A DNA stretch of 56,951 nucleotides from Bacteroidota bacterium (GCA_017303975.1 JAFLBG010000020.1:1-56951), one strand, 5' to 3'. Counted from the first letter of the stretch, positions 13,148 through 28,920 are shown. Program-made: numbers and translations. The notes: generated by a model from the sequence alone, not told the origin.

Positions 13148-14152
13148 ATGTTTACTAATAAATCTATATTAATAACAGGTGGCACGGGCTCGCTTGGAAG
13201 AGAACTAGTTAGTTTGATACTGGATAAATGGCCAGCTGTAAAACGACTGGTAATTTACTCTAGAGATGAGCAAAAGCAATATCAAATGGCTCAAGATTTC
13301 CCTGAGTCTAAATTCCCCGCAATTCGTTATTTTATTGGTGACGTAAGAGACTTTGTTAGATTAAAACGTGCATTTGAAGGTATCGATTATGTTATCCATG
13401 CCGCTGCCATGAAACATGTTCATATTGCAGAGTATAATCCTGATGAGTGTGTTAAAACAAATATTGGAGGAGCTGAAAATGTAATTAGGGCAGCGCTAGA
13501 GTCAAATGTATCTAGAGTTGTAGCCCTTTCTACAGACAAGGCGTGTGCACCAATTAATTTGTATGGAGCCACTAAACTGGCATCGGATAAGCTTTTTATA
13601 GCTGCAAATAATATTAGAGGAAATAGGGACCTAAAGTTCTCTGTTGTTAGATATGGTAATGTTATGGGTTCTAATGGTTCTGTTATGCCTTTTTTTATAA
13701 AGAAAAGAGAAAGTGGTATTTTACCAATAACAGACCCTAATATGACAAGATTTAATATTTCTCTAGAAGATGGAGCTAATATGGTTTTATTCGCTTTGGA
13801 CAATGCTTGGGGTGGAGAGTTATACGTTCCTAAAATTCCATCTTATAAAATAACAGATGTTGCGAAGGCTATAGGGCCAGATTGTAAATTAGAAATAGTT
13901 GGTATACGCCCAGGAGAGAAGGTTCATGAGGAAATGATTACTGCTTCAGATTCATTTACAACTTACGATTTAGGCAAGTACTACACCATTCTACCCCAAC
14001 AACCAACATGGGATTTATCCGACTTTATAAAACACTTTAGTGCAAAAAAAGTTGTCGAAGGTTTTACATATAATTCTGGTGCTAATTCAGAATGGCTTGA
14101 TGTGAATGCGTTGTCAAGTCTAATAAAGCATCACGTTGAAAAAAAAATGTAG
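13148..14152 (+). CDS. pseB: UDP-N-acetylglucosamine 4,6-dehydratase (inverting), pseudaminic acid pathway step 1
   Basis: PseB converts UDP-GlcNAc to UDP-2-acetamido-2,6-dideoxy-beta-L-arabino-hexos-4-ulose. The 334-residue protein matches PseB in length and motifs: GGTGSLGR at residues 11-18 for NADP binding, HAAAMKHVHIAEYNP at about 84-98, and the catalytic Asp130-Lys131 with Tyr139-x3-Lys143 in STDKACAPINLYGATK. The DK pair is typical of the soluble inverting dehydratases (FlaA1/PseB) and distinguishes it from the membrane-bound WbpM type. The gene opens a run of 17 closely spaced genes; pseC begins two bases after its stop. Confidence 0.94.
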   Translation: MFTNKSILITGGTGSLGRELVSLILDKWPAVKRLVIYSRDEQKQYQMAQDFPESKFPAIRYFIGDVRDFVRLKRAFEGIDYVIHAAAMKHVHIAEYNPDECVKTNIGGAENVIRAALESNVSRVVALSTDKACAPINLYGATKLASDKLFIAANNIRGNRDLKFSVVRYGNVMGSNGSVMPFFIKKRESGILPITDPNMTRFNISLEDGANMVLFALDNAWGGELYVPKIPSYKITDVAKAIGPDCKLEIVGIRPGEKVHEEMITASDSFTTYDLGKYYTILPQQPTWDLSDFIKHFSAKKVVEGFTYNSGANSEWLDVNALSSLIKHHVEKKM

Positions 14153-14154
14153 TT

Positions 14155-15309
14155 ATGAAACCAATTCCTTATGGTAGACAGAACATTTCTCAAGAAGATA
14201 TACAAGCTGTCGTTGATATACTTCAGTCTGATTATTTAACTCAAGGACCTGCTGTTATAGAATTTGAAAAGAAGTTTGCAGAATATATTGGTTCGCAATA
14301 TGCCGTTGCTGTTTCAAACGGTACTGCTGCATTACATTTATGTACTTTGGCTCTAAATGTTTCAGTTGGAGATAAAGTGATAACTACCCCAATAACTTTT
14401 GCTGCTTCCGCAAATTGCATTAGATATTGCGGTGGAGATGTATTGTTTGCAGATATTGACCCTAATACATTTTTGATTGATATAAATGAGGTTGAAAAGC
14501 TTTTTAAAAAGCATCCTAAAGGATCTATTAAAGGTATTATTCCTGTTGATTTTTCTGGTGCCCCGGTAGATTTAGAACAATTAAGAAAATTAGCTGAATA
14601 TTATGGTTGTTGGATTATTGAAGATGCCTGCCATGCTCCTGGAGGATTTATTAGAGATTCAAAAGGCATTAAACAAAATTGTGGCAATGGCGTTTATGCT
14701 GATTTTGCTATTTTCTCATTTCATCCCGTAAAGCACATTGCTACTGGAGAAGGAGGGATGATTACAACAAATAATAAAGATTTGTATGAGAAGCTTTTAA
14801 TTTTAAGAACTCATGGAATTACAAAGGATGTTGGCTTATTAACTGAAAATCATGGTTCTTGGTATTATGAAATGCAGCAATTGGGTTATAATTATCGTAT
14901 GCCAGATATTCTTTGCGCCTTAGGCATTTCTCAATTGAAAAGAGCAGAAGATGGTCTAATCCAAAGAAAGAAAATCGCTGATGTATATAGAAATGCTTTT
15001 AAGAATAATCCTAATATTCAGCTTCAGACTGAAGTTGAAGGGCACGCCTATCATTTGTTTGTGATACAAGTTCAAAATAGGTTAGGGTTGTATAATTATT
15101 TAAGAGAGAAGAATATTTTTGCTCAGATTCATTATATCCCAGTTCATACGATGCCTTATTATAAGCAACTGGGCTGGAAAAATGGCGACTTCTTAAAAGC
15201 TGAAAATTATTATCAACACTGTATTAGCTTACCTATTTATCCAACTTTAACAGATTTGGAGCAGAAATATGTCATCAATTGTGTAAACGATTTTTTTAGC
15301 CAGAATTAG
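14155..15309 (+). CDS. pseC: UDP-4-keto sugar 4-aminotransferase, pseudaminic acid pathway step 2
   Basis: PseC transfers an amino group from glutamate to C-4 of the PseB product. The 384-residue protein is a DegT/DnrJ/EryC1 aminotransferase that starts IPYGRQNISQEDI as PseC proteins do. The PLP-binding lysine is Lys193 in FSFHPVKHIATGEGG; EDACHAPGG at 156-164 supplies the aspartate that contacts the pyridine nitrogen. Its place directly after pseB makes the assignment secure. Family length is about 375-390. Confidence 0.94.
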   Translation: MKPIPYGRQNISQEDIQAVVDILQSDYLTQGPAVIEFEKKFAEYIGSQYAVAVSNGTAALHLCTLALNVSVGDKVITTPITFAASANCIRYCGGDVLFADIDPNTFLIDINEVEKLFKKHPKGSIKGIIPVDFSGAPVDLEQLRKLAEYYGCWIIEDACHAPGGFIRDSKGIKQNCGNGVYADFAIFSFHPVKHIATGEGGMITTNNKDLYEKLLILRTHGITKDVGLLTENHGSWYYEMQQLGYNYRMPDILCALGISQLKRAEDGLIQRKKIADVYRNAFKNNPNIQLQTEVEGHAYHLFVIQVQNRLGLYNYLREKNIFAQIHYIPVHTMPYYKQLGWKNGDFLKAENYYQHCISLPIYPTLTDLEQKYVINCVNDFFSQN

Positions 15310-15344
15310 TTTTTTTATTGAGAATTTAAGTCTTCCATATAAAG

Positions 15345-15911
15345 ATGCGTAAGTATAAATGTTTAGGTCAAAATTCTTGGCATATAGGAGAATATAAGCT
15401 TACTCCTATTCGAGACGAGGACAAATATTTGATAATGAATTGGCGAAATGATCAAATTGATATTCTACGACAAAAACATTTGTTGACCAGGAATCAACAA
15501 GATACTTATTTTAAGAATGTAGTTTCGGGATTGTTTGATGTATTTAAGCCAGGTCAATTGCTATTTAGTTATTTTTTCAGAGATATTCTTATTGGATATG
15601 GAGGTTTGGTGCATATTGATTGGGAAAGCGAAAATGCTGAAGTTTCATTTCTATTAGAAACTAAAAGAAATAGCATTTCGAATTTATTTTTTGAGGATTT
15701 CGATAATTACCTCAAACTACTATCAAAAATAGCTTTTGGAGAATTAAAATTTAATAAGCTTCACACAACATTCTATGTTATCGACCAAAGAAAAGACTAT
15801 AAGTCTGTTTTGGAACTAAACGGGTTTGTTCAAGAGGCAAGATTACATAAACATATTCTTATTAATCACAGTTTACAGGATGTTCTTATTTATTCATTAT
15901 TTAAAAAGTAA
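15345..15911 (+). CDS. pseH: GNAT N-acetyltransferase, pseudaminic acid pathway (PseH type)
   Basis: PseH acetylates the 4-amino group made by PseC using acetyl-CoA. The 188-residue protein is the right length for PseH (about 180). It opens with the beta-strand YKLTPIRDEDKYLIMNWRN common to sugar GNATs of this type, has an IGYGGLVHIDWES strand at about residues 84-96 and ends with the typical KSVLELNGFVQEA segment. Its position after pseB-pseC supports the specific name. The conserved acetyl-CoA loop is degenerate, as in many PseH proteins, so substrate identity rests partly on context. A second GNAT lies at 21726. Confidence 0.82.
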   Translation: MRKYKCLGQNSWHIGEYKLTPIRDEDKYLIMNWRNDQIDILRQKHLLTRNQQDTYFKNVVSGLFDVFKPGQLLFSYFFRDILIGYGGLVHIDWESENAEVSFLLETKRNSISNLFFEDFDNYLKLLSKIAFGELKFNKLHTTFYVIDQRKDYKSVLELNGFVQEARLHKHILINHSLQDVLIYSLFKK

Positions 15912-15913
15912 AA

Positions 15914-16813
15914 ATGACTTTAGGCTTGCTGGTTAGTGGTTCATTAGGCTTAATAGTATTAAAGAGCCTCTTGGTAAATAAGAAGTCGATTAGTTTTGTT
16001 CTAACAGATAAAAATTCATTAGGTATTATTGAGATATGTAGAGATAATAATATTTTTTGTTTTGCAGGTAATCCTAGAAATGGTAGAGCATTAACTGTAA
16101 TTAAAGACAAAAAATGCGATATTTTGCTATCAATAAATTATCTTTTTTTGATAGAAGATGATTTAATTAATTTGCCATCTAAAAAAGTAGCAATTAATTT
16201 TCATGGATCTTTATTGCCTAAATATAGGGGGCGTACGCCCCATGTTTGGGCTATTATAAACAACGAGACTGAAACTGGAGTTACTGCACATCTTATTGAT
16301 TCGAAATGTGATACAGGCGACATTATTTCTCAAAGAAAAATTTCGATTGATAGAAATGATACAGGAGCAGATATTCTAGTAAAATTTAATTCTATTTATC
16401 CTTCTTTTGTACTAGAAATCCTAGGTCAAGTGGAAAAGGATATTGTCATTAATTCTTGCAAACAAGACGAGCAAAAGGCCACTTATTATGGTAAAAGAAC
16501 TGAATTTGACGGAGAAATAAGTTGGGATTGGCAAAAAGAACGTATTTTTAACTGGGTTCGTGCTCAGGCAAAACCTTACCCGGGAGCATTTACTTTTAAC
16601 AATGGGCAGAAAGTTATAATTCATAAAGTTGAATTCTCTGACATCGGTTTTGATTACAATGTTGTAAATGGAACAGTTGTTCTTATTGATTTGGATGGAT
16701 TTGCTCATGTTAAAACACCAAACGGATGTTTAAAGTTAGTTGATATAGAGTTTTTAGGTAAATTTGAATTAAATCAAATACTTGGAAAAGATGGAGAAGG
16801 CGTCACAGCTTAA
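15914..16813 (+). CDS. Formyltransferase-family enzyme (probable sugar N-formyltransferase)
   Basis: The 299-residue protein has a Formyl_trans_N domain with the catalytic triad Asn95-x-His97 and Asp133 (INFHGSLLPKYRG and CDTGDIIS) and a C-terminal Formyl_trans_C-like domain beginning about residue 195 (WDWQKERIFNWVRAQAKPYPG). These enzymes move a formyl group from N10-formyl-tetrahydrofolate to an amine. It is not Fmt: it sits between pseH and pseI and overlaps the pseI start, so an amino sugar or nonulosonate intermediate is the likely acceptor. N-formylated pseudaminic acid is known from bacterial glycans. Which nitrogen is formylated is not shown by the sequence. No PseG hydrolase is found in this position, where it might be expected. 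Confidence 0.85.
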   Translation: MTLGLLVSGSLGLIVLKSLLVNKKSISFVLTDKNSLGIIEICRDNNIFCFAGNPRNGRALTVIKDKKCDILLSINYLFLIEDDLINLPSKKVAINFHGSLLPKYRGRTPHVWAIINNETETGVTAHLIDSKCDTGDIISQRKISIDRNDTGADILVKFNSIYPSFVLEILGQVEKDIVINSCKQDEQKATYYGKRTEFDGEISWDWQKERIFNWVRAQAKPYPGAFTFNNGQKVIIHKVEFSDIGFDYNVVNGTVVLIDLDGFAHVKTPNGCLKLVDIEFLGKFELNQILGKDGEGVTA

Positions 16814-17828
16814 TATAAGTTCTACTAGCAGGCCTTTTATAATTGCTGAAATGAGTGGTAATCACAACCAATCATTGGACCGTGCAATGGAAATTATTAA
16901 GGCTGCTGCAGAGTCCGGAGTCAATGCAATAAAACTACAAACGTATACAGCAGATACTTTGACAATAAACCATAAAGGTGGTTTTTTTGATATAACAGAT
17001 GAAAAATCTTTGTGGGCCGGAAGAAACCTTTACGATCTTTATACACCTTGGGAATGGCATAAGCCTTTATTTGAGTATGCCAATAAATTAGGTTTAGTAG
17101 CTTTTAGCAGTCCTTTTGATGAAACTGCCGTAGATTTTTTGGAGTCTTTAAATGTACCACTTTATAAAGTAGCATCTTTTGAAAACAATCATCATCCTTT
17201 ATTAAAAAAAATAGCTAGAACTGGTAAGCCTATAATTATGAGTACAGGAATATCTTCTATTCAAGATATTTCAGAATCTGTAGAAGTTTTGATGGAGAAT
17301 GGGTGCGAAAAATTGATTTTATTAAAATGTACGAGTACATATCCCTCAACTTCAGAAAATACTAATTTGGCAACTATTCCATATCTAAAGGAGAAATTTC
17401 CCAATTGTTTGATTGGGTTAAGCGATCATACTATGGGAGTAGGTGTATCTATTGCTGCTATTGGTATGGGCGCTTGCGTAATTGAAAAACACTTTACTTT
17501 AAGAAGATCAGATGGAGGGGTTGATAGTGCATTTAGTATGGAACCAGAAGAAATGAAAGTATTGGTAGATGAGTCAGAGAAGGCTTGGCTTGCTATTGGT
17601 AAGGTTCAGTTAGAGGTTCAGCAAGTTGAGCAGAAAAGCTTACTTTTTAAGCGTTCAATATATGTAGTTAAGGATATTAATGAAGGAGAATTGCTTACGG
17701 AAGAAAATATTAGAGTTATTCGCCCTGGTAATGGAGAGCATCCAAGATATTTTGAATCACTAATAGGTAAAAAAGTAAAAAAGAAATTAGAAAAGGGCAC
17801 TCCTTTTTCAATTAAATATATTCAGTAA
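16791..17828 (+). CDS. pseI: Pseudaminic acid synthase
   Basis: PseI condenses the free 2,4-diamino-altrose derivative with phosphoenolpyruvate to form pseudaminic acid. The 345-residue protein has the NeuB-type TIM barrel with FIIAEMSGNHNQSL near the start, the IKLQTYTADTLT strand characteristic of PseI/NeuB, the LIGLSDHTMG segment, and a C-terminal SAF (antifreeze-like) domain from about residue 285 (KRSIYVVKDINEGE, then IRVIRPGNG). I place the start at the ATG 16791; a TTG at 16782 is in frame but less likely. Either way it overlaps the formyltransferase gene by 23 bases or more, implying coupled translation. Confidence 0.94.
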   Translation: MEKASQLNISSTSRPFIIAEMSGNHNQSLDRAMEIIKAAAESGVNAIKLQTYTADTLTINHKGGFFDITDEKSLWAGRNLYDLYTPWEWHKPLFEYANKLGLVAFSSPFDETAVDFLESLNVPLYKVASFENNHHPLLKKIARTGKPIIMSTGISSIQDISESVEVLMENGCEKLILLKCTSTYPSTSENTNLATIPYLKEKFPNCLIGLSDHTMGVGVSIAAIGMGACVIEKHFTLRRSDGGVDSAFSMEPEEMKVLVDESEKAWLAIGKVQLEVQQVEQKSLLFKRSIYVVKDINEGELLTEENIRVIRPGNGEHPRYFESLIGKKVKKKLEKGTPFSIKYIQ

Positions 17829-18530
17829 ATGCGCACAATAGCTATAATTACGGCAAGGGGAGGTAGCAAAAGAATACCAAGAAAGAATATTAAGCCTTTC
17901 TTAGGGAAGCCAATAATTCAATATTCAATTGAAGCTGCTATTAATTCTGAGTGCTTTGATGAGGTGATGGTATCTACAGAAGACCAGGAGATAGCTGAGT
18001 TTGCACAAAAAAATGGCGCAAATGTGCCTTTTTTTCGATCTGCTGAAAATTCAGATGACTTTTCTACTACTGCAGATGTTTTATTGGAAGTATTGTCTGA
18101 ATATAAATCAAAAGGAATTGAGTTTGATTATGCTTGTTGTATTTATCCCACAGCTCCATTCGTTTCAGCACAAAAATTGAAGCATGCTTTCGATCGGTTA
18201 GTTTCAGAAAATGCGTTGTCCGTTATTCCTATAGTAAAGTTTGGGTTTCCAATTTTGCGATCTCTTAAGCAAGAAAACGGATTTGTTGCTTTTAATTGGC
18301 CTGAATATTTAAATTCTCGATCCCAAGATTTACCTAATTCTTTTCATGATGCAGGACAGTTTTATTTTTTCAGAACTCATGATTTTTTTCGAGATAAAAA
18401 ATTATTTACATCGAAAACAATTGGTTTAGAAATGCCTGAATCAGAAGTTCAAGATATTGATAATGAGGAAGATTGGAAATTGGCGGAAATTAAATACACG
18501 TTTTTGCAAGAACGGAATAAAAAACAGTAA
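17829..18530 (+). CDS. pseF: CMP-pseudaminic acid cytidylyltransferase
   Basis: PseF activates pseudaminic acid with CTP. The 233-residue protein begins TIAIITARGGSKRIPRKN, the nucleotide-binding loop of the NeuA/KdsB family in its PseF form, followed by FLGKPIIQYSIEAA. The YPTAPF segment near residue 100 and FHDAGQFYFF near residue 175 are typical of PseF. It begins directly after the pseI stop codon with no spacer, giving the order pseI-pseF seen in many pseudaminate loci. Confidence 0.94.
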   Translation: MRTIAIITARGGSKRIPRKNIKPFLGKPIIQYSIEAAINSECFDEVMVSTEDQEIAEFAQKNGANVPFFRSAENSDDFSTTADVLLEVLSEYKSKGIEFDYACCIYPTAPFVSAQKLKHAFDRLVSENALSVIPIVKFGFPILRSLKQENGFVAFNWPEYLNSRSQDLPNSFHDAGQFYFFRTHDFFRDKKLFTSKTIGLEMPESEVQDIDNEEDWKLAEIKYTFLQERNKKQ

Positions 18531-19463
18531 ATGTATAAAGCTTTATTAATTGGATGTGGAAATATTGGAGCTTTATATGATATTGATAAGGATAGTGTAT
18601 TAACTCATGCAAAGGCGTATCATTTATCTGAAAATTTTAAACTATTTATTTACGATACTAACATTGAAGCTGCAAATAGAGTAGCTGCCAAATATAACGC
18701 AACTGTAGTTCAAGATATTTTTAATGAAAAATTTTATAAATACGATTGTATTAGCATTGCATCGCCTACCGTAACTCATTTCGATATTTTAAAAAAGGCA
18801 ATTACTGAAAGAGTGAAGGTAGTGCTCTGCGAAAAACCTATAACTTATAAAAGTTCAGAACTACTAGATCTTGAAAACTTATACAAGTTATCATCTACAA
18901 AAATTATCGTAAATTATATAAGAAGATTTCAGGAAAAGTACTCTATTCTAAAATCAACTATAGATAAGTGCTTTCCAAATACATTACCAAATGAAATTGT
19001 AATTAGGTATACTCGTGGTTTTGCAAATAATTGTAGCCACGCATTAGACACTTTGTCATTCCTGCTTAATAAAGACACCAATTTAGATGTGCAAGTAGAA
19101 TCAAGCCCCGTTTTTGATGCTTTTGAGAAAGACCCAACAGTTTCATTAAAAGGATTTTGGAATGAAATTCCTATTTATTGTCAAGGATTAATTAATGTTG
19201 AATATCCGCTTTTTGAAATCGAACTAATTTATACTGCAGGTTATGTTTCCATTAGAAATTCTGGAAACACAATCGAGGTTTTTGAGCGAAGAAAAACAGA
19301 TTCTTATTTGTTACCTTTGATTCAAATGGAAAATTGTATCAAAGATTATATGATTCCTGTTGTAGATAATGTTTTTAGAATTTTGGATGGAGAAATAGAA
19401 AGAGACAATTTTATAGAATCTATAAATATGAATAAAGAAGTACTAAGAGTAATCAATTTATAA
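18531..19463 (+). CDS. Gfo/Idh/MocA family oxidoreductase
   Basis: The 310-residue protein has an N-terminal Rossmann motif (LLIGCGNIGALYD, residues 5-17), an ASPTVTH segment at about residues 77-83 and the family's CEKPITYK at 99-106, containing the conserved Glu-Lys-Pro. These enzymes oxidise or reduce a sugar ring carbon with NAD(P). The next gene is an aminotransferase, so the pair may make a keto sugar and aminate it, or alter a nonulosonate. It starts immediately after the pseF stop. The substrate is unknown. Confidence 0.82.
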   Translation: MYKALLIGCGNIGALYDIDKDSVLTHAKAYHLSENFKLFIYDTNIEAANRVAAKYNATVVQDIFNEKFYKYDCISIASPTVTHFDILKKAITERVKVVLCEKPITYKSSELLDLENLYKLSSTKIIVNYIRRFQEKYSILKSTIDKCFPNTLPNEIVIRYTRGFANNCSHALDTLSFLLNKDTNLDVQVESSPVFDAFEKDPTVSLKGFWNEIPIYCQGLINVEYPLFEIELIYTAGYVSIRNSGNTIEVFERRKTDSYLLPLIQMENCIKDYMIPVVDNVFRILDGEIERDNFIESINMNKEVLRVINL

Positions 19464-19469
19464 TAAAGT

Positions 19470-20768
19470 ATGGCAAAACTGGCTATTAACGGAGGTGTTC
19501 CGATTAGGAAAAAATTATTTCCTGCCTATAATACAATAGGAGAGGAAGAGAAGAAGGCTGTAATGAGCGTTTTAAATAGTGGCAACTTATCGCAGTTTTT
19601 AGGAGCATGGCACAAAGATTTTTATGGAGGACCTACAGTCCAACAATTTGAAAAAAACTGGAGTGCTGTATTTCAATCCAAGTACGCTATTTCCCTTAAT
19701 TCAAATACTTCAGGATTATTTACTGCAATTGGAGCCTGTGGAATTAAACCTGGAGATGAAGTAATTGTTTCTCCTTATACTATGAGTGCAAGCGCATTGG
19801 CTCCAATTATATATGGCGCTGTTCCGGTTTTTGCAGATGTCGATTACGATAATTTTGGGCTAAGTCCAGAAAGTATTGAAAAAAATATTACTCCAAGAAC
19901 CAAGGCAATAATAGTAGTACATATTTTTGGCAACCCTGCTAAAATGGATGAAATAATGGCAATTGCCCAAAAATATAATCTTTTTATTATAGAAGATTGT
20001 GCGCAAGCGCCCATGGCTAAGTATAAGAATAAATATGTTGGCACAATTGGTCATATTGGCGTATTTAGTTTGAACTATCATAAACATATACATACAGGTG
20101 AAGGAGGAGTTATTATAACTAATAGTGATAATTTGGCTGAGCGATGTTATTTAATTCGGAATCATGGAGAAAATATTGTGGAGCCTAAAGGTGTTAAAGA
20201 CGCGTTTAATACCTATGGATTTAACTATAGAATGACAGAAATGGAGGCTGCTGTTGGGATTGAACAATTAAAAAAACTTCCTAAATTAATCGATGAGCGA
20301 CTGAAAAATGCAGCTTATTTTGCTAGTAAATTAGGTGCTATCGATGGCATAGAGGCCCCGTTAATTGATGATAATGCGTTAGCTGTTTATTATTTGCAAG
20401 CTTTTAAGTTTAAAAAGGATAAAATAGGAGTTGATAGAAATATTTTTATTAATGCAATTAAAGCTGAAATTCCTTCTGCAGAATTAAGAGAGGATACACC
20501 TCTAATTGGATCCGGTTATGTAAAACCTCTTTATTTGCAACCCTTGTATCAGCAAAGAGCCACACATTGTTCATTCAACTGTGAAAAATATAAGGGGCAG
20601 GTAAATTATAGTAAAGGAATTTGTCCAAATGCAGAGAAGTTACATTTTGAAGAATTATTTACACATGAGTATATGAGACCCGGTATGACAAAGCAAGATA
20701 TAGATGATGTAATTTCTGCTTTTTATAAAGTAAATGATAATATCAGTGAGTTAGTTGTAAATGTATAA
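19470..20768 (+). CDS. DegT/DnrJ/EryC1 PLP-dependent sugar aminotransferase
   Basis: The 432-residue protein starts LAINGGVPIRKKLFP, the entry typical of the AHBA synthase/StsC branch of DegT aminotransferases. Lys205 in SLNYHKHIHTGEGG is the PLP-linked lysine, and IIEDCAQAP at 173-181 gives the pyridine-contact aspartate. It is longer than PseC because of a C-terminal region (about 340-410) with three cysteines (THCSFNCEKY and GICPNAE), which I do not assign. It should aminate a keto sugar or keto-cyclitol, perhaps the product of the preceding oxidoreductase. Its gene overlaps the next by eight bases. Confidence 0.88.
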   Translation: MAKLAINGGVPIRKKLFPAYNTIGEEEKKAVMSVLNSGNLSQFLGAWHKDFYGGPTVQQFEKNWSAVFQSKYAISLNSNTSGLFTAIGACGIKPGDEVIVSPYTMSASALAPIIYGAVPVFADVDYDNFGLSPESIEKNITPRTKAIIVVHIFGNPAKMDEIMAIAQKYNLFIIEDCAQAPMAKYKNKYVGTIGHIGVFSLNYHKHIHTGEGGVIITNSDNLAERCYLIRNHGENIVEPKGVKDAFNTYGFNYRMTEMEAAVGIEQLKKLPKLIDERLKNAAYFASKLGAIDGIEAPLIDDNALAVYYLQAFKFKKDKIGVDRNIFINAIKAEIPSAELREDTPLIGSGYVKPLYLQPLYQQRATHCSFNCEKYKGQVNYSKGICPNAEKLHFEELFTHEYMRPGMTKQDIDDVISAFYKVNDNISELVVNV

Positions 20769-21738
20769 TTTGTCAGGAAAAGGGTTATTTGTTTTTAGTG
20801 ATCCTGGTGGAGCTAAGCCTATACTAGCCTATATAACACTATTTAATTTAAATAATTCTTGTATTGTAATTTCTGATAGGGAGTATGTTTTTTTTTCAGA
20901 CTATTTAGTACCTGTCCAAAAATACAAAGGAGAGTTACCTATTGATTACATTAAAAAAAATAGACCCGACTTCATATTTACAGGAACTTCGTATACATCA
21001 AAAATTGAGTTGTCGTTTATTGAAGCCGCAAATAAACTAAATATACCTACATATACTTTTGTTGATCATTACACACGCTTTTTGGATAGATTTGAAATTA
21101 GATCCAATGAATTTATTTTCCCACGATTTATTTTGGTTGGTGATGAAAAGCTCTATTCCATAGCTAAACAAAGTGTATTTAATTCAGAAGTATTAGTAAG
21201 TGGAAATTTCCACCATCAATTTTTAAGAAAATGGAAACCCTCCGCTTCCAAGTACAACTTTTTTAAAGAAAATGAAATACCTACAGAAGGTAAGATAATT
21301 GTATTTGCTCCAGACCCCTTAACAAATGTTGGAGGAGCTGCTGTTTATGGATTGGATGAGATAAGTGTGTTTAAAGAATTGGCAAATGTATTTAGACGTT
21401 TTAATTGTGATGAATATACTTTTATTATTAAAACACATCCAAACCAAAATGTTGAATTGTTAAAAGCTGAAGCTGCATTAATTGATGATGTTAATATCCT
21501 TTTTACCCCAAATGCAAACACCAACAGTTTGTTATACTATTCTGATTTGGTAATTGGTATATTCTCTAATATCTTAGTAGAGGCAAACATAATGGGAGTA
21601 AAAGTTGTAAGGTATTTAAATAAACTAACAGCAATTGATCCATTTAAAGATTTAAACTTGGGAATAGCCATTAATAGTCAAGATGAGTTATATGATTATT
21701 TATCAAAAGATTTAAAAGTAAAAGCATGCAAGAAGTAA
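20761..21738 (+). CDS. GT-B-like protein of unknown function; candidate stand-in for PseG or a glycosyltransferase
   Basis: I do not recognise this 325-residue protein to family level. The N-terminal half begins with a glycine-rich loop (GLFVFSDPGGAKPILAY) and alternating strands and helices; the C-terminal half has IIKTHPNQN (His226-Pro227) and LVIGIFSNILVEAN, like the second Rossmann domain of GT-B enzymes such as CDP-glycerol transferases and bacterial sialyltransferases. PseG, the UDP-sugar hydrolase missing from this pathway, is also a GT-B-fold protein, but its GxGHxxR N-terminal motif is absent here. Alternatives are a glycosyltransferase or a UDP-sugar hydrolase of new type. It overlaps both neighbours, so it is part of the operon. 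Confidence 0.6.
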   Translation: MYNLSGKGLFVFSDPGGAKPILAYITLFNLNNSCIVISDREYVFFSDYLVPVQKYKGELPIDYIKKNRPDFIFTGTSYTSKIELSFIEAANKLNIPTYTFVDHYTRFLDRFEIRSNEFIFPRFILVGDEKLYSIAKQSVFNSEVLVSGNFHHQFLRKWKPSASKYNFFKENEIPTEGKIIVFAPDPLTNVGGAAVYGLDEISVFKELANVFRRFNCDEYTFIIKTHPNQNVELLKAEAALIDDVNILFTPNANTNSLLYYSDLVIGIFSNILVEANIMGVKVVRYLNKLTAIDPFKDLNLGIAINSQDELYDYLSKDLKVKACKK

Positions 21739-22298
21739 TCGATCCACGCGATATTTTTATTAAGGGAAAAAGTGTTGTTTTAAAAGCGCTAACTAAGAGT
21801 GACGTTGAAAATAGCAACTGGTATGGGTGGTTTAATGACGAGGAATTAAGTAAAACACTTCAGAAACATTATTTTCCTAATTCCTTAGAATCTCAACTAG
21901 ATTTTTGGGAGAAAAATATACTAAACTCGAGGGATAAACTTCAACTAGGTATTTGTAGGACAGATAGTTCTAATTTGTTAGGCGTAGTAAGTTTAAATAA
22001 TATTGATTTTATAAATAGAAAGTGTGAATATGCTATTGTAGTTGGTGAGAAGTCTGGTCAAAATATTAATATTTTTTTAGAAACTACCAATCTGATATTT
22101 AACCACGCATTTAATACATTGAATATGAATAGAATATATGGTGGGGGTATTTCAAAGGAACTGGTAAGTTTAATGTGTAGGTCTCTTGGTTGCAAGGAAG
22201 AAGGAGTTTCTAGGCAAGAAATTTTTAAAAATGGAGAGTACCATGATGCTTACAGATATGGCATTCTAAAAAGTGAATTTGTTTTTAAGTTAAGATAA
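21726..22298 (+). CDS. GNAT family N-acyltransferase (second of the locus)
   Basis: The 190-residue protein resembles RimJ/PseH-like sugar GNATs: a VVLKALTKSDVENSNWYGW opening, a GVVSLNNIDFINRKCEYAI pair of strands at about residues 84-102, and LMCRSLGCKEEGVSRQEIF near 150-168. It starts inside the previous gene (13-base overlap) and is eight bases before the FkbH gene. It could acetylate the amino sugar from the upstream aminotransferase, or transfer the acyl group carried by the downstream ACP; the sequence does not decide between these. Confidence 0.75.
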   Translation: MQEVIDPRDIFIKGKSVVLKALTKSDVENSNWYGWFNDEELSKTLQKHYFPNSLESQLDFWEKNILNSRDKLQLGICRTDSSNLLGVVSLNNIDFINRKCEYAIVVGEKSGQNINIFLETTNLIFNHAFNTLNMNRIYGGGISKELVSLMCRSLGCKEEGVSRQEIFKNGEYHDAYRYGILKSEFVFKLR

Positions 22299-22306
22299 GG
22301 AATAGA

Positions 22307-24034
22307 ATGAAATTCTCTGAGATTCTGCGTTTAAATAAGGAATTTAGATTTTCTCTTGAAAAAACTCCAGTTTATCCTATTTCCGTGATATCTAATGTTG
22401 TTGTAAATCAATTGCAACCAATATTGGAGTATGAGTTAAGAGTTAATTTCGTTAATGCTGAAGTAGCTATTGGGGATTACGATGCTATAATTCAAGATAG
22501 TGTAAAATCTTCAGAAAAAAGTATGGTGGTTTTGTTTTGGGAAATTGCCAATCTTATCGATGGTTTTCAATATAAAGCCCCTTTATTGTCATTAAAAGAG
22601 ACGGAAGAGCTTGTTGAAAGATTTAAGTCGGAAATAGACTTTGCGCTAAAAAACTTAGAAAAACTTCCTTTGGTTCTTTTTAATAAGTTCAGTACACTAG
22701 CATTCAACCATCCCTATATAAAAAAAAATAATTTTGATTTTATTTGCGATCAACTTAATAATTACATTGAGTCAAAACAATCTCATAATGTTATAATAAT
22801 TGACATTGATAAATTAATAGCTAAATGTTCAATAGAAAAATCTTTTGATTTTAGAAATTATTATTCTTCTAAAGCCCTTTATTCGGTAGACTTTTTTAGG
22901 GAATACGCTTCGTTTATTAAGCCAATAGTTTTATCTGCAACAGGTAAGTCAAAAAAAGCATTGATATTTGATTGCGATAATACACTTTGGAATGGGATAG
23001 TTGGAGAGGATGGGTTAGATGGAATTCAAATGTCTTCTAAAACAGCAAAAGGTGTAGTCTTTGAAGAGGTGCAACATTTGGCTAAAGACTTAGCACGTAA
23101 GGGAATTGTTATTGGATTAAATAGTAAGAATAATGCCTCAGATGTTAACGAGGTATTTAGCAATAATAAAGCAATTACTATTAAGGATGAAGATATTGTA
23201 ATTAAGAAGGTTAACTGGAATGATAAAGTGTCAAATCTAAAGGAAATTGCAAAAGATTTGAATATTGGGATTGATAGCCTATTATTTGTAGATGATTCTG
23301 ATTTTGAAATAAACCTAGTAAGAGAAACCCTACCTCAAGTTGTTACGATGCAAGTTCCAAAACAGCTTTATTTGTATCCACAAGAATTTCGTAAAAGGCA
23401 AGAATGTTTTTTTACGTTATCTAATTCCAATGAAGACTCTAATCGTATTAAAATGTACAAAGATGAGCAAAAGAGAGAAACAGAAAAAGCATCTTTTGTC
23501 AATATAGGTGAGTATTTAAAGTCGCTCGACTTGAGTATTGTGGTTTATATTGATAATAAAGCTCAAATTGCACGTATTGCACAGCTTACTCAAAAGACAA
23601 ATCAGTTTAACTTTACAACCAAAAGATATACTGAAACAGAAATTACTAGCTTTATTGAAAGCAAATCACATAAAGTATTTACAATTGAAGTAAGAGATAA
23701 ATTTGGAGATTTTGGATTAACAGGGGTAATTATTGTTGAAATTAAAGACGATTCAGCTCTAATTGATACTTTTTTAATGAGTTGTAGGGTTTTAGGGAGG
23801 AACTTAGAACTTAAATTTTTAGATTTGGTAATCGAAGAGCTTAGACTTATTGGAATTAAAAAAATTGTGGCATCTTATTATAAAACAATAAAAAATAATC
23901 AGGTTCAAGTTTTTTATGAGAATAATGGTTTTTTAGTAATGAAACAAAATGAGATTGAAAAGTTTTATGAACTCAATATTGCCAATTATAAATTACATCA
24001 ATTAGATTACATTAGCTCAAAATATGATAGATAA
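22307..24034 (+). CDS. FkbH-like HAD-IIIC protein (glyceryl-ACP synthase type)
   Basis: The 575-residue protein matches FkbH-like fusions. Residues 1-205 form an N-terminal domain, the HAD domain begins at about 217 with LIFDCDNTLWNG (Asp222-x-Asp224), LLFVDDSDFEI near 325 is HAD motif III, and the C-terminal part (about 400-575) has a GNAT-like fold with FGDFGLTGVI and ending NNQVQVFYENNGF. FkbH enzymes take 1,3-bisphosphoglycerate and load a glyceryl group on an acyl carrier protein. The next gene is an ACP overlapping by 11 bases, as expected. Similar HAD/ACP pairs occur in flagellin glycosylation loci of Campylobacter. The product here is inferred. Confidence 0.88.
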   Translation: MKFSEILRLNKEFRFSLEKTPVYPISVISNVVVNQLQPILEYELRVNFVNAEVAIGDYDAIIQDSVKSSEKSMVVLFWEIANLIDGFQYKAPLLSLKETEELVERFKSEIDFALKNLEKLPLVLFNKFSTLAFNHPYIKKNNFDFICDQLNNYIESKQSHNVIIIDIDKLIAKCSIEKSFDFRNYYSSKALYSVDFFREYASFIKPIVLSATGKSKKALIFDCDNTLWNGIVGEDGLDGIQMSSKTAKGVVFEEVQHLAKDLARKGIVIGLNSKNNASDVNEVFSNNKAITIKDEDIVIKKVNWNDKVSNLKEIAKDLNIGIDSLLFVDDSDFEINLVRETLPQVVTMQVPKQLYLYPQEFRKRQECFFTLSNSNEDSNRIKMYKDEQKRETEKASFVNIGEYLKSLDLSIVVYIDNKAQIARIAQLTQKTNQFNFTTKRYTETEITSFIESKSHKVFTIEVRDKFGDFGLTGVIIVEIKDDSALIDTFLMSCRVLGRNLELKFLDLVIEELRLIGIKKIVASYYKTIKNNQVQVFYENNGFLVMKQNEIEKFYELNIANYKLHQLDYISSKYDR

Positions 24035-24254
24035 AATAAAATTAATAATGGCTACAGTTTTTGATGTAGAGTCATCTTCTATAGCTCAAGAAACATCTTC
24101 TGAAACTATTGAAAAGTGGGATTCAATTAACCATATGAATTTGATTACGTCATTAGAAGATGAATTTGATATTCGTTTTGATGATGCTGAAATTGCAGAA
24201 ATGCTTAATTTTAAAGCTATTTTTGAAAGTGTTACTAAAAAAATTAACAAGTAA
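24024..24254 (+). CDS. Acyl carrier protein
   Basis: This small acidic protein of 76 residues has the ACP phosphopantetheine site Ser34 in EKWDSINHMNL and the helix III region IRFDDAEIAEML. It is too far from fatty-acid genes to be the housekeeping AcpP, and it overlaps the FkbH-like gene by 11 bases. It is the probable carrier of the glyceryl (or other acyl) group. A phosphopantetheinyl transferase is not in the window. Confidence 0.9.
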   Translation: MIDKIKLIMATVFDVESSSIAQETSSETIEKWDSINHMNLITSLEDEFDIRFDDAEIAEMLNFKAIFESVTKKINK

Positions 24255-24259
24255 ATAAA

Positions 24260-25030
24260 ATGACAAAGGATTTAAACGAATTGCAACAGGTCTATGATTA
24301 TGCTTCATATTTACCTGAACAATATAGAAATGAAATAGAAGAGTACTATACCAATAGTATTGGAACAAACGCCTGGAAACTACAAAATTTTCCTAAATAT
24401 GTTCCTCGTCAGTCTCTCACTAGATTTTTGGTTAGATACGAAATATTCAAAAAAATATTAAATATTCAAGGTTCTATAGTTGAGATTGGCGTTTTAGATG
24501 GTGCTAGTTTAATGTCTTGGGCTCAGTTTAGTGCAATATTTGAACATTTAAATCATCAACGGAAGATTTTTGGTTTTGATATGTTTGGTGATAAGCCTTC
24601 AATTGGAGAACATGATAAAACAGGTATTGCATTGAAGCAGTATGAGGATGGGAAAATGGGATTGGATTCGTTTGAAGATATTTCAAAAGCGATAAAAGTA
24701 TTTGATAAAAATAGATTTCTAAATTCTATTGAGAAGGTTGTTTTGGTAAAAGGCGATGTTAAAAAAACAGCTCCTGAGTTTATTCAAAAAAATCCGGAAA
24801 CAATTGTTAGTTTGCTTTATCTGGATGTAAATCTTTACGAGCCTACCAAAGCTGCTTTAGATGCCTTTTTGCCTAGAATGCCAAAAGGCGCTGTAATTGT
24901 TTTCGATGAATTAAATGATAGAGGTTTACCAGGTGAGACTCTAGCGGTTTTGGATTCTATCGATATTAAAAAATTAAGGATAGAACGTTTCCCATTTGAT
25001 ACAAAAATTTCTTTTGCTGTAATTGACTAA
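24260..25030 (+). CDS. TylF/MycF-type SAM-dependent O-methyltransferase
   Basis: The 256-residue protein looks like the TylF (macrocin O-methyltransferase) family: IVEIGVLDGASLMSWAQ at residues 73-89 is the SAM motif, IFGFDMFGDKPSIGEHD at about 103-119 is the family's second block, and LLYLDVNLYEPTKAALD near 190 contains the metal-binding aspartate region, followed by KGAVIVFDELND. TylF-type enzymes methylate sugar hydroxyls in a Mg-dependent way. Being five bases after the ACP gene, it may methylate the ACP-bound glyceryl group or the modified sugar; both are inference. Confidence 0.82.
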   Translation: MTKDLNELQQVYDYASYLPEQYRNEIEEYYTNSIGTNAWKLQNFPKYVPRQSLTRFLVRYEIFKKILNIQGSIVEIGVLDGASLMSWAQFSAIFEHLNHQRKIFGFDMFGDKPSIGEHDKTGIALKQYEDGKMGLDSFEDISKAIKVFDKNRFLNSIEKVVLVKGDVKKTAPEFIQKNPETIVSLLYLDVNLYEPTKAALDAFLPRMPKGAVIVFDELNDRGLPGETLAVLDSIDIKKLRIERFPFDTKISFAVID

Positions 25031-25041
25031 TTAATTCAATT

Positions 25042-26175
25042 GTGAAGTACTGTAAAGAATGTCTTCAAACGGATAGCAGACCTGGTATAGCTTTTAATAA
25101 AGAGGGAGTATGTCCGGCATGTACCTATCATAAAAGTTTAAGTCTTGTTGACTGGGATGAGCGTAGAGCAGAATTAGATACTATTGTATCCTTTGGTAAA
25201 GCGAATAATAGTTCCGGATATGACTGTATTATTGGTGTAAGTGGTGGTAAAGATAGTACTCGTCAGGCATTTTTTGTAAAAGATGTATTGAAAATGAATC
25301 CTTTGTTAGTTTGTTTGAGTTATCCTCCAGAACAAATTACACAAAGAGGAGTTGATAATGTGTCAAATATGATTAAACATGGATTTGATTGTATTGTAAT
25401 AAATCCTGCACCCCAAACTTGGCGAACTCTTATGAGAAGAGGGTTTCTAGAATTTGGAAATTGGGGTAAATCTACCGAATTAGCTTTGTTTAGTAGTGTT
25501 CCAAGATTAGCTATTGCGTATCAAATTCCATTAATTTGGTGGGGTGAAAATGCCGCATTACAATTAGGAGATTTAAATGTTATGGGCAAAAATGGAAGTG
25601 ATGGAAATAATTTACGTAAAATGAATACTTTAGGTGGCGGGGATTATACTTGGATATTGAAAGATAATGAGATAAAAAAAAATGAAATTCTTCAATATTG
25701 TTATCCTTCAGAAAAAGATATGGAGGATGCCAATTTAAGAATTACATTTTTAGGCTATTTTTGGAAAGATTGGTCACTAAGAGATAATGGTAATTTTTCT
25801 GCACTAAGAGGTTTAGAAATTAGAAATGAAAACCCTGTTGATATTGGAGATTATTTGGGTGTTACAGGTTTAGATGAGGATTGGGTAGGATTGAACCAAA
25901 TGATAAAGTATCTTAAATATGGATTTGGTCGCGTAACAGACTATGTAAATGAAGATATTCGAAATGGTCGTTTAACTAGAGATGAAGCTATACAGTTGGT
26001 AGAGAAATACGATGGAAAATGTTCAGGTAGTTATATAAAGAGTTTTTCGGATTATATCGGAATTACAGTCGATGATTTTTGGGGTCAAATAGATTCTTAT
26101 GTAAACAAAAGTTTGTTTGAAAAGGATAATAATCTCAGGTGGAAACCTAAATTTAAAGTTGGGTTTAATTCGTGA
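25042..26175 (+). CDS. pseA: N-acetyl sugar amidotransferase (PseA/WbpG family), canonical copy
   Basis: PseA/WbpG enzymes turn an N-acetyl group of a sugar or nonulosonate into an N-acetimidoyl (acetamidino) group using ATP and ammonia. The 377-residue protein has a zinc-ribbon-like start (Cys4, Cys7, Cys24, Cys27) and the ATP pyrophosphatase PP-loop SGGKDS at residues 67-72. A GTG start at 25042 is used because KYCKEC must be at the N-terminus. The HisH-like glutaminase gene follows with a GTGA start-stop overlap, giving the ammonia source. Confidence 0.9.
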   Translation: MKYCKECLQTDSRPGIAFNKEGVCPACTYHKSLSLVDWDERRAELDTIVSFGKANNSSGYDCIIGVSGGKDSTRQAFFVKDVLKMNPLLVCLSYPPEQITQRGVDNVSNMIKHGFDCIVINPAPQTWRTLMRRGFLEFGNWGKSTELALFSSVPRLAIAYQIPLIWWGENAALQLGDLNVMGKNGSDGNNLRKMNTLGGGDYTWILKDNEIKKNEILQYCYPSEKDMEDANLRITFLGYFWKDWSLRDNGNFSALRGLEIRNENPVDIGDYLGVTGLDEDWVGLNQMIKYLKYGFGRVTDYVNEDIRNGRLTRDEAIQLVEKYDGKCSGSYIKSFSDYIGITVDDFWGQIDSYVNKSLFEKDNNLRWKPKFKVGFNS

Positions 26176-26798
26176 GTAAGAAACAAAAAATAGTAATTAT
26201 TGATTATGGTGTTGGAAATGTGCATTCCGTTGCAAACGCTATTTCTTTTCTTGGTTATAGTAAATTAAAAATATCAGATAAGGAGATTGATATTAATGGA
26301 GCTGACACTTTGATTTTGCCAGGGGTTGGAGCTTTTGATGAGGCAATGAGAAATTTAAATAAAAGGAATTTACATTTAATTTTGGGGGAAAATGTTTTAG
26401 TGAAAAAGAAGAAAATTTTAGGAATTTGTGTAGGTATGCAAATGTTGGCTTCGTATTCTGAAGAGAATGGGATACATAAAGGATTGGATTGGATTAAAGG
26501 AAGTGTTAAAAAACTTGAAGTTTCTAGCCCTTTTTCTGTTCCTCATGTTGGATGGAATGATATTCTTATTAAGAAATCTGCCCCTCTTTTTGATAATTGT
26601 ATTAATATGGCGCATTTCTATTTTGACCATAGTTATCATTTTGAAACAGAGTTGTCTAATATTGCCGCAGAATGCGACTATGGAATTAAATTAACTGCAG
26701 CGGTTCAATTAGAAAATATTTTTGGGGTTCAATTTCATCCGGAAAAAAGTCAATTAAATGGACTAAGGATGTTTCGTTCTTTTTTCAATTCTATATAA
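26172..26798 (+). CDS. HisH-like glutamine amidotransferase subunit for acetamidino synthesis
   Basis: The 208-residue protein is a class I glutamine amidotransferase of the HisH type. The nucleophile is Cys86 in LGICVGMQML, and His189 with Glu191 in VQFHPEKSQ complete the triad; the LILPGVGAFDEAM loop is also as in HisH. It would release ammonia from glutamine and pass it to the HisF-like partner encoded two bases downstream. It lies between two sugar amidotransferase genes and no histidine genes are present, so a role in acetamidino-sugar formation is far more likely than histidine synthesis. It starts with GTG overlapping the previous stop. Confidence 0.9.
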   Translation: MSKKQKIVIIDYGVGNVHSVANAISFLGYSKLKISDKEIDINGADTLILPGVGAFDEAMRNLNKRNLHLILGENVLVKKKKILGICVGMQMLASYSEENGIHKGLDWIKGSVKKLEVSSPFSVPHVGWNDILIKKSAPLFDNCINMAHFYFDHSYHFETELSNIAAECDYGIKLTAAVQLENIFGVQFHPEKSQLNGLRMFRSFFNSI

Positions 26799-26800
26799 AT

Positions 26801-27667
26801 ATGCTAAAGAAACGTATTGTAGCTACATTAGTTGTAAAGAACAATATTGTTGTTCAAAGTATAGGTTTTTCAAAATTTCTGCCCGTAGGTAAGCCAGATA
26901 TTGCAGTTGAGTTTTTGAATCAATGGGGGGTAGATGAAATAATTTTTTTAGATATTGATGCTACAAAATACAAACGATTACCTAATTATTCGTTAATTAA
27001 AAAAATTTCTCGTAAGTGTCAGGTTCCGTTAACAGTTGGTGGTGGAATAAAAGATATTAACCATATTAAAGAATTAATGCACTGTGGAGCAGATAAGGTT
27101 TCGTTGAATAATAGTGCAATAAATAATTCAGAATTAATTTCTGAAGCAGCTACCGTATTTGGGAATCAATGTGTCGTGGCGTCAATCGATGCTACGTACA
27201 TTAACAACCAATATAAAGTTTATGATTATACTTCGAAAAAAATAATTGATAGATTACCTGCTGATTTTGCAGTTGATATGGAGAGGGCAGGTGCAGGTGA
27301 AATTTTAATTAATTCTGTTGACAGAGATGGTTGCTACACAGGATTTGATTTGAATCTCATTAATTCTGTTTGCAATGCTGTAAGAGTTCCTGTTATATGT
27401 AGTGGAGGAGCAAAGAATGCAATCGATTTTGTTGAAGTGTTTCAAAAAACGAATGTTTCTGCAGCAGCAGCGGCTAATTTTTTTCATTTTTCAGAACATA
27501 GTGTTATTACCTCTAAGGCATTTGTATCAAATAGATTACCTATCAGAATTGAAACGCAGGCTACATATCATTCATCTTCTTTTGATTTAGACCTTAGACT
27601 TCAAAAAAAAAATGATGATGCTCTTGAGAAATTGTTATTTACTAAAATTGAAAAAGAGTTAATATAA
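26801..27667 (+). CDS. HisF-like ammonia-channel subunit lacking the cyclase Asp11
   Basis: The 288-residue TIM-barrel protein aligns without gaps to the start of HisF. The ammonia-gate residues Arg5, Glu46, Lys99 and Glu167 are all present, and Asp130 in VVASIDATY is kept, but the second catalytic Asp, residue 11, is Val (LVVKNN instead of the usual LDVKxG). In histidine-pathway HisF, Asp11 is essential for imidazole-glycerol-phosphate formation. So this subunit probably guides ammonia to a sugar amidotransferase and no longer performs the cyclase reaction. The C-terminus is about 30 residues longer than usual (from about 255), a possible partner-binding tail. It overlaps the next gene by one base. 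Confidence 0.9.
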   Translation: MLKKRIVATLVVKNNIVVQSIGFSKFLPVGKPDIAVEFLNQWGVDEIIFLDIDATKYKRLPNYSLIKKISRKCQVPLTVGGGIKDINHIKELMHCGADKVSLNNSAINNSELISEAATVFGNQCVVASIDATYINNQYKVYDYTSKKIIDRLPADFAVDMERAGAGEILINSVDRDGCYTGFDLNLINSVCNAVRVPVICSGGAKNAIDFVEVFQKTNVSAAAAANFFHFSEHSVITSKAFVSNRLPIRIETQATYHSSSFDLDLRLQKKNDDALEKLLFTKIEKELI

Positions 27668-28920
27668 TGATTTGTAGTAGGTGCTTATATACAGATAATC
27701 ATCCATTGAATATAACCTTTGATGATGATGGGGTTTGCAGTGGATGTAGGGTGCATGAAGAGAAAGATACTTTAGATTGGAATCTTAGGTCAGAGAAACT
27801 TGAATCTATACTAAACGAATATAGAAATAAGTCAGGAAATAATTATGATTGTATAATTCCTGTAAGTGGTGCTAGGGATTCATATTTTATTGTACATACA
27901 ATAAAGAATATATATAAAATGAACCCTTTGCTTGTTACATACAACAAGCAGTATAATACAGATTTGGGTATCAGAAATCTTGCGAATCTAAGAATAAAGT
28001 TTAACTGCGATATAATGACTCTTACTGTTAATCCAGAAACAGTAAAAAGAATAACAAGAGCCTCTCTGAGAAAACTTGGAAGTATTTATTGGCATTGTAT
28101 TGCAGGACAAACTGTTTATCCCGTGCAGGTTGCTGTTAAGTTCAAAATACCATTAATTGTATGGGGTGCTCATCAAGGTCTTGATCAAGTAGGAATGTTT
28201 TCTCATTTGGACGAAGTGGAGATGACTCGAAAATATAGAAAGGAGCATGATTTAATGGGGTATGAAGCAGAAGATTTTGTGGATGAGTTTGATGGAATTA
28301 GTATAGATGATATTACACAATTTAAGTATCCTGAAGATATAGAACTAGAACAAGTAGGTGTTCGCGGCATATATCTTAATAATTATATTCGTTGGGATTC
28401 AATGGATCAGCATAGGAAAATGATTGAGATGTATGATTACGAATCCTATCCACAAACTAGAACATTTGACCCCTATAATGATGTTGATTGTTTTAATTAT
28501 TCTGACGTACACGACTATATTAAATTTTTGAAACATGGATACTCTAAAGTTACTGACCATGCTTGTAGGGAAATTCGACTAAGAAAAATTACAAGAGAAG
28601 AAGGAGAACGGTTGGTGCAAAAGTATTCTCATATTTATCCTAAAAATTTGTCACTTTTTTTAGATTGGATAGGAATGACAGAAAATGCCTTTAATTATAT
28701 AATTGATGCCCATCGAAATAAAGAAAAATGGAATAGAGATGAGAATTGGCAATGGCAACTGCAAAACGCAATTAATTATACTGTTGATAAGTCCTTAATC
28801 GAAAAATCAAGATTACCTCTTTTAAAAAGTAGTTTTAACATTAGAAATACACCTTTAAAAAGAAAAAATTATAAAGAAAATAAATATATATTAGTTGGCA
28901 GAGGATTTGGAGAGAGTTAG
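27667..28920 (+). CDS. Second N-acetyl sugar amidotransferase, with altered PP-loop
   Basis: The 417-residue protein is a relative of the PseA/WbpG enzyme at 25042, with the same architecture: Cys3, Cys6, Cys24 and Cys27, then the PP-loop at residues 67-72. Here the loop reads SGARDS where the first copy has SGGKDS, a Gly to Ala and a Lys to Arg change, so ATP handling may differ. The rest is collinear but divergent, with conserved blocks such as FLKHGYSKVTDHACREIR near residue 290. It ends with about 50 extra basic residues. It may be the amidotransferase for a second position, or a regulatory partner of the first copy. Confidence 0.84.
   Translation: MICSRCLYTDNHPLNITFDDDGVCSGCRVHEEKDTLDWNLRSEKLESILNEYRNKSGNNYDCIIPVSGARDSYFIVHTIKNIYKMNPLLVTYNKQYNTDLGIRNLANLRIKFNCDIMTLTVNPETVKRITRASLRKLGSIYWHCIAGQTVYPVQVAVKFKIPLIVWGAHQGLDQVGMFSHLDEVEMTRKYRKEHDLMGYEAEDFVDEFDGISIDDITQFKYPEDIELEQVGVRGIYLNNYIRWDSMDQHRKMIEMYDYESYPQTRTFDPYNDVDCFNYSDVHDYIKFLKHGYSKVTDHACREIRLRKITREEGERLVQKYSHIYPKNLSLFLDWIGMTENAFNYIIDAHRNKEKWNRDENWQWQLQNAINYTVDKSLIEKSRLPLLKSSFNIRNTPLKRKNYKENKYILVGRGFGES

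Follow-up and report, generated by a model that had tools for sequence, protein, structure and literature searches.

A pseudaminic acid-type operon in a Bacteroidota bacterium with a possible ACP-dependent N-acylation module

Gene content and layout of the operon

The operon occupies positions 13148-28920 of the window (the whole stretch of DNA analyzed, 56,951 nucleotides), with its genes on one strand (+) and joined by small gaps or overlaps (Table 1). PseB, PseC, PseI, and PseF each scored above their equivalog cut-off, which supports the link to nonulosonate (NulO) synthesis made in an earlier sequence-only reading of this DNA. That reading described a GNAT gene directly 5' of the gene for FkbH, with FkbH overlapping an acyl carrier protein (ACP) and followed by a TylF-type methyltransferase. 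The coordinates of all four genes proved exact, and family profiles confirmed the arrangement within an uninterrupted pseudaminic acid operon, in which FkbH and ACP overlap by 11 bases. The Gfo-DegT2 pair and the acetamidino genes directly downstream of the cassette had not been mentioned.

The identities of these genes and their synteny can be read directly from the sequence. In the cultured bacterium Sediminibacterium roseum (L036), the order is PseC-x-FMT-PseI-PseF-Gfo-DegT2-GTB-GNAT2-(MaoC-SDR)-FkbH-ACP-WbuX-HisH-HisF-WbuX, with 39-77% identity to the window genes. Because the same gene order is kept in S. roseum, the arrangement is not due to chance. The S. roseum operon has no TylF, and a gene for a MaoC-SDR fusion separates GNAT2 from FkbH.

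Table 1 Predicted genes of the operon with their positions in the window
Gene	Predicted role	Position	Strand	Evidence
PseB	UDP-GlcNAc 4,6-dehydratase (inverting)	13148..14152	+	TIGR03589 498.6 bits, above cut-off
PseC	UDP-4-keto-6-deoxy-AltNAc transaminase	14155..15309	+	TIGR03588 475.7 bits, above cut-off
GNAT1	GNAT-fold protein without CoA loop, in PseG slot; candidate PseG substitute	15345..15911	+	PF13420
Formyltransferase	Probable N-formylation of 4-amino sugar (N7 of NulO)	15914..16813	+	PF00551 and PF02911; 54% identical to L036 homolog
PseI	Pseudaminic acid synthase	16791..17828	+	TIGR03586 483 bits, cut-off 340
PseF	CMP-pseudaminic acid synthetase	17829..18530	+	TIGR03584 289.5 bits, cut-off 205.7
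Gfo	Gfo/Idh/MocA dehydrogenase, proposed oxidation of NulO hydroxyl (C8 or C4)	18531..19463	+	PF01408; homologous loci also have it between CMP-NulO synthetase and DegT2
DegT2	Aminotransferase, proposed to aminate oxidized NulO	19470..20768	+	PF01041 283.8 bits; invariant K205
GTB	GT-B-fold protein, probable NulO glycosyltransferase	20761..21738	+	Weak NF046086 match; model (pLDDT 86) matches UDP-GlcNAc 2-epimerase/GT-B fold
GNAT2	Proposed N-acyltransferase using acyl-ACP; has lost CoA pyrophosphate loop	21726..22298	+	PF13302; loop comparison
FkbH	FkbH-type HAD enzyme, predicted glyceryl-ACP synthase	22307..24034	+	TIGR01686 281 bits, cut-off 147
ACP	Acyl carrier protein	24024..24254	+	Weak but consistent matches to ACP models
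TylF	TylF/CalS11-type O-methyltransferase, accessory, sugar or acyl as substrate	24260..25030	+	PF05711 34.4 bits (cut-off 23); PF13578 above cut-off
WbuX 1	WbuX-type N-acetyl-sugar amidotransferase	25042..26175	+	TIGR03573 290.3 bits
HisH	HisH-type glutaminase for amidination	26172..26798	+	TIGR01855 214.2 bits
HisF	HisF/WbuZ-type ammonia-channel partner	26801..27667	+	TIGR03572 259 bits
WbuX 2	WbuX-type amidotransferase	27667..28920	+	TIGR03573 332.1 bits

Pseudaminic acid synthesis and amidination

A PseG hydrolase was not found in the genome of the window at E<=1. GNAT1, which occupies the position of PseG, is a candidate for a putative non-orthologous replacement of this hydrolase. In 25 PseI loci, GNAT1 alone was present in 18, PseG alone in six, both in none, and neither in one, a pattern of exclusivity that is biased in that direction because GNAT1 itself was used to gather the GNAT1 loci. 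The best profile match of GNAT1 is PseH, and its assignment as an ordinary PseH was considered and rejected. In L163, a true PseH (155.7 bits) is encoded beside GNAT1, and therefore GNAT1 is not the PseH there. Clusters L168 and L169 have the order PseB-PseC-PseF-GNAT1-GNAT-PseI, and fusions of GNAT1 to another, PseH-like GNAT are frequent (330-346 aa). The GT-B-fold protein was another candidate for the PseG function. In a structure search it matched no more than the general UDP-GlcNAc 2-epimerase/GT-B fold, and its orthologs coexist with PseG in L036 and L124; on these grounds the candidate was rejected.

GNAT1 is also found in a set of Pse clusters (L112:6886-11700, L114, L122, and L166) that encode, ahead of PseI, a HAD phosphatase and a fusion of SDR and ATP-grasp domains (~640 aa). 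Three of these clusters also have TylF. The ATP-grasp protein in them may be the N-acylating enzyme.

WbuX, HisH, and HisF make up the known acetamidino machinery, and homologs of all three are encoded in this one operon, as expected of an acetamidino-sugar system. The presence of a formyltransferase together with two WbuX genes and a single HisH/HisF pair (25042-28920) suggests acetamidino and formamidino groups on one sugar.

FkbH, its carrier protein, and the acyl unit

The catalytic residues of FkbH are intact. Asp222 and Asp224 of the HAD DxDxT motif, Asp330, and Cys493 (SCR) are invariant in 72 of 72 aligned FkbH proteins, and all are present in the window FkbH. The phosphopantetheine attachment serine, located in a WDS motif, is invariant in 60/60 FkbH-linked ACPs and is kept in the window ACP, which gives FkbH a stand-alone carrier partner. 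These residues support the proposal that FkbH and ACP load a glycerate-type acyl unit. A PF00550 search of the genome misses the window ACP, and its only match is encoded elsewhere in the genome.

FkbH is also known from polyketide methoxymalonyl-/glyceryl-ACP pathways (FkbH, Mad14, BafAIV), where BafAIV is 367 aa long compared to 575 aa for the window FkbH. Glycan-type FkbH has approximately 215 extra N-terminal residues (22307-22950, +) relative to the 367-aa polyketide type. Methoxymalonyl-type dehydrogenases (FkbI-, FkbK-like) beside FkbH/ACP were not found in Pfam/NCBIfam scans of the operon genes. Unlike the polyketide pathways, the operon thus lacks the dehydrogenases leading to the malonyl level, and the acyl group would end up on a sugar amine.

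When genome contigs were scanned with FkbH, 45 relatives were returned, most of which are full length and 39-55% identical. They come from Bacteroidota, Omnitrophota, Nitrospirae, Verrucomicrobia, Campylobacterales, and other groups. Among 40 loci, the genes upstream of FkbH encoded a MaoC-SDR fusion (24 loci), a SAM-dependent methyltransferase of a family other than TylF (18), or a VOC protein (5), and six had none of these. The fusion is ~395 aa long and lies directly 5' of FkbH (L033:8799-9995, L036:8805-9998, and 22 other loci). With a MaoC-SDR, distinct methyltransferase, or VOC gene upstream of FkbH in most relatives and across many phyla, the FkbH-ACP acyl cassettes of glycan loci make up a widespread family that has apparently not been described. 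A search for papers on FkbH and ACP with O-antigen found nothing in the openly accessible literature, which is not proof of absence.

The window locus is of the bare type, with no upstream tailoring gene, and a genome search found the MaoC-SDR fusion neither in the operon nor in the rest of the genome. The acyl unit would therefore most simply be the direct product of FkbH, and it probably stays glyceryl. It is very improbable that FkbH loads a related acyl group (e.g., lactyl) or that the ACP serves another pathway: relatives of FkbH usually occur with a MaoC-SDR that would change the acyl, but this genome is missing the fusion, and it is the ACP overlapping FkbH, not the one detected by PF00550, that belongs to the cassette.

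Some of the other FkbH-ACP cassettes (L056, L058, L059, and L061) include an AMP ligase and a GNAT beside amino-sugar transaminases, and those of L058 and L059 encode FabG and FabH homologs as well. This content suggests that other amino sugars carry longer N-acyl chains built on ACP.

Loss of the CoA loop in GNAT2

GNAT proteins bind the pyrophosphate of CoA through a loop with the motif R/Q-x-x-G-x-G/A. GNAT2 is closest to SpeG-type acetyltransferases, and its structure model has the SpeG-like GNAT fold, but the loop position reads SGQNIN (EKSGQNINIFLE) where solved relatives have SGKGYA, and the motif is absent. Within the GNAT2 clade, the loop is lost in 6/6 FkbH-linked orthologs, whereas GKG[IYFV][GA] or a close form is kept in 12 of the 13 unlinked relatives. 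The key comparison is L126, which has the PseI/CMP-synthetase/Gfo/DegT2/GTB/GNAT order of the window but no FkbH-ACP, and in this case the loop is intact. When several GNAT families were pooled, the loop was missing in 15/16 FkbH-linked and 4/22 unlinked proteins (Fisher p=6.7e-6, a value that ignores relatedness and overstates independence because the GNATs within FkbH-linked groups are related). There are exceptions: the GNAT of L109 is FkbH-linked yet keeps its loop, and the GNAT1 family lacks the loop without FkbH, so loop loss is an imperfect marker of ACP use.

Since GNAT2 belongs to a group without the CoA loop that is always found beside FkbH-ACP, the most likely source of its acyl group is ACP, and its donor most likely switched from CoA to ACP. 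The sequence-only suggestion of an ACP-dependent acyltransferase is thus supported by comparison across the clade, where the loop is lost only in the presence of FkbH-ACP.

A possible third amine made by Gfo and DegT2

In the KdnA/KdnB pathway, oxidation and subsequent transamination of an ulosonic acid yield 8-amino-Kdo. A profile search of the PDB with DegT2 gave KdnA, the 8-amino-Kdo transaminase (5k8b), as the second-best match, and Gfo and DegT2 would follow the same scheme of oxidation and transamination. They differ in that the window dehydrogenase is of the Gfo/Idh type and the substrate would be a nine-carbon NulO. DegT2 was the only query in our search of 390 genomes of the class, so that FkbH played no part in the sampling. 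All five of the close DegT2 homologs were located in NulO clusters, where a NulO synthase, a CMP-NulO synthetase-type gene, or both were present, and each directly followed Gfo and CMP-NulO synthetase-type genes. As the only free hydroxyls of a Pse-type sugar are at C4 and C8, an oxidation/transamination pair acting there would aminate one of them. Gfo and DegT2 probably make a new NulO amine at C8 or C4 for the acyl group. The KdnA match and the NulO context (5/5) support, without proving, a third amino group acylated by GNAT2. A search for triamino or 8-amino NulO found nothing in openly accessible papers, although this does not prove that none has been described.

In other pathways, 3-amino sugars are the products of Gfo/DegT pairs, and Gfo, DegT2, GNAT2, FkbH, and ACP could likewise build a separate N-acylated amino sugar neighboring the NulO in the glycan. 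The DegT2 module of L037 and L034 lies outside any NulO cluster seen, and other FkbH-ACP cassettes are found beside ordinary amino-sugar transaminases (L059). However, L034, L035, and L037, with no NulO synthase in their FkbH loci, each have one elsewhere in the genome, of the NeuB family in L034 and L037, and the DegT2 homologs from the unbiased sample are beside CMP-NulO synthetase-type genes in every case. We consider a separate sugar quite improbable.

The TylF-type methyltransferase

The nearest solved relative of TylF is CalS11, a TDP-rhamnose 3'-O-methyltransferase (121 bits). The window protein shares its fold and family with the CalS11/TylF sugar O-methyltransferases but differs in having D-x-N for D-x-D. 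This motif, which precedes LYEPT, is D-V-N in the window and L033 proteins and D-x-D in the other 14 aligned homologs. TylF is 82% identical between the window and L033, compared to 51-64% for FkbH, PseI, and DegT2, and therefore has its own history or is under stronger constraint. In an unbiased class sample of 33 TylF homologs, 11 were located <=8.5 kb from a NulO synthase (five are its immediate neighbors), and only two were near FkbH.

TylF had been thought to methylate the glyceryl group, and this part of the sequence-only reading is not established. Methylation on the ACP or after transfer would give a methylglyceryl group, as in the dimethylglyceric acid of Campylobacter, whose locus for dimethylglyceryl-Pse includes an FkbH gene. 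The order FkbH-ACP-TylF is found again in L033 and the distant L117, with FkbH-ACP-MaoC-SDR-TylF in L109, and the D-to-N change common to the window and L033 could mark a different substrate. On the other hand, TylF homologs are more common near NulO synthases without FkbH than near FkbH, the otherwise matching S. roseum operon has no TylF, and where FkbH loci have a methyltransferase upstream (18/40) it is of a different family. Given these observations and the activity of CalS11 on a sugar, we regard methylation of the acyl group as somewhat unlikely. TylF is more likely an accessory enzyme that methylates a sugar hydroxyl.

Relation to known glyceroyl nonulosonates

The S-layer glycan of Tannerella forsythia, also of the Bacteroidota, carries Pse5Am7Gra, a pseudaminic acid with acetamidino and N-glyceroyl groups (PMC6120980, PMC6388019). 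This sugar is thought to aid immune evasion by the periodontal bacterium (PMC6120980), and the gene for the glyceroyl group was described by the authors as elusive (PMC6120980, PMC6388019). The earlier claim that such chemistry would be new in Bacteroidota is thus too strong, and it is the gene candidates that are new. The two systems are alike in having a Pse operon and, as predicted here, a Pse-type NulO bearing both acetamidino and N-glyceroyl groups (PMC6120980, PMC6388019). They differ in that an AsnB protein was proposed for amidination in T. forsythia, whereas WbuX, HisH, and HisF are explicit in the window, as are FkbH, ACP, and GNAT, with the formyltransferase and Gfo-DegT2 in addition.

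The T. forsythia sugar has exactly the combination of acetamidino and glyceroyl, and the window has acetamidino genes near FkbH-ACP, which would fit transfer of glyceryl to the PseC-derived amine to give an N7-glyceroyl NulO, with Gfo and DegT2 doing something else. We think this unlikely, as the formyltransferase occupies the N7-acylation position in the window, L036, and L124, and GNAT2 adjoins DegT2-GTB rather than PseC in the nearest homologs.

In Campylobacter jejuni 11168, flagellin carries dimethylglyceryl-Pse (PMC3958885). The gene cj1302 encodes an FkbH domain, and strain 12664, in which cj1302 is a pseudogene, lacks sugars with dimethylglyceric acid (PMC7099621). This is correlative support for FkbH as the source of the dimethylglyceryl group, and it bears out the parallel to Campylobacter drawn before. 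A glycerate-derived group on Pse and an FkbH-domain gene in the locus are shared, but in C. jejuni the group is dimethylated, is on a Pse with both amines already substituted, and needs cj1295 (PMC3958885, PMC7099621). Overall, the sequence-only interpretation is supported for the FkbH-ACP loader, the ACP-dependent GNAT, the nonulosonate link, and the Campylobacter parallel, is not established for TylF acting on glyceryl, and went too far on novelty in Bacteroidota.

Proposed pathway and significance

Taken together, the gene content points, at a chance we would put just short of even, to a pseudaminic-type NulO operon carrying an ACP-dependent N-acylation module made up of FkbH, ACP, GNAT2, and the amine from Gfo-DegT2. 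We infer every substrate and the order of the steps as follows. PseB, PseC, the formyltransferase, GNAT1 (in the role of PseG), PseI, and PseF would produce a CMP-activated NulO. Gfo would oxidize a hydroxyl of this NulO at C8, or less likely at C4, and DegT2 would turn the ketone into an amine. FkbH would load the phosphopantetheine of ACP with the glyceryl from 1,3-bisphosphoglycerate, and GNAT2, lacking the CoA loop, would transfer this group from ACP to the new amine. WbuX, HisH, and HisF would then convert N-acyl groups to amidines, TylF would add a methyl, more likely on a sugar hydroxyl than on the acyl, and the GT-B protein would transfer the finished NulO.

It is possible, though somewhat doubtful, that the product is a triamino NulO in which Gfo and DegT2 aminate the CMP-NulO (C8 or C4) and an ACP-dependent GNAT adds the FkbH-loaded glyceryl, with the GNAT donor changing from CoA to ACP wherever FkbH-ACP has been recruited. 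Glyceroyl on sialic-acid-like sugars is known chemistry in Bacteroidota for which the genes have been elusive (PMC6120980), and this operon offers candidates. Along with its sister in the cultured S. roseum, it represents a complete, testable candidate pathway for a glyceroyl-NulO. The comparison also suggests a general rule, in which the arrival of FkbH-ACP in a glycan locus goes along with loss of the CoA site from the GNAT. By this rule, ACP-borne N-acyl groups on surface sugars would be predictable from sequence.
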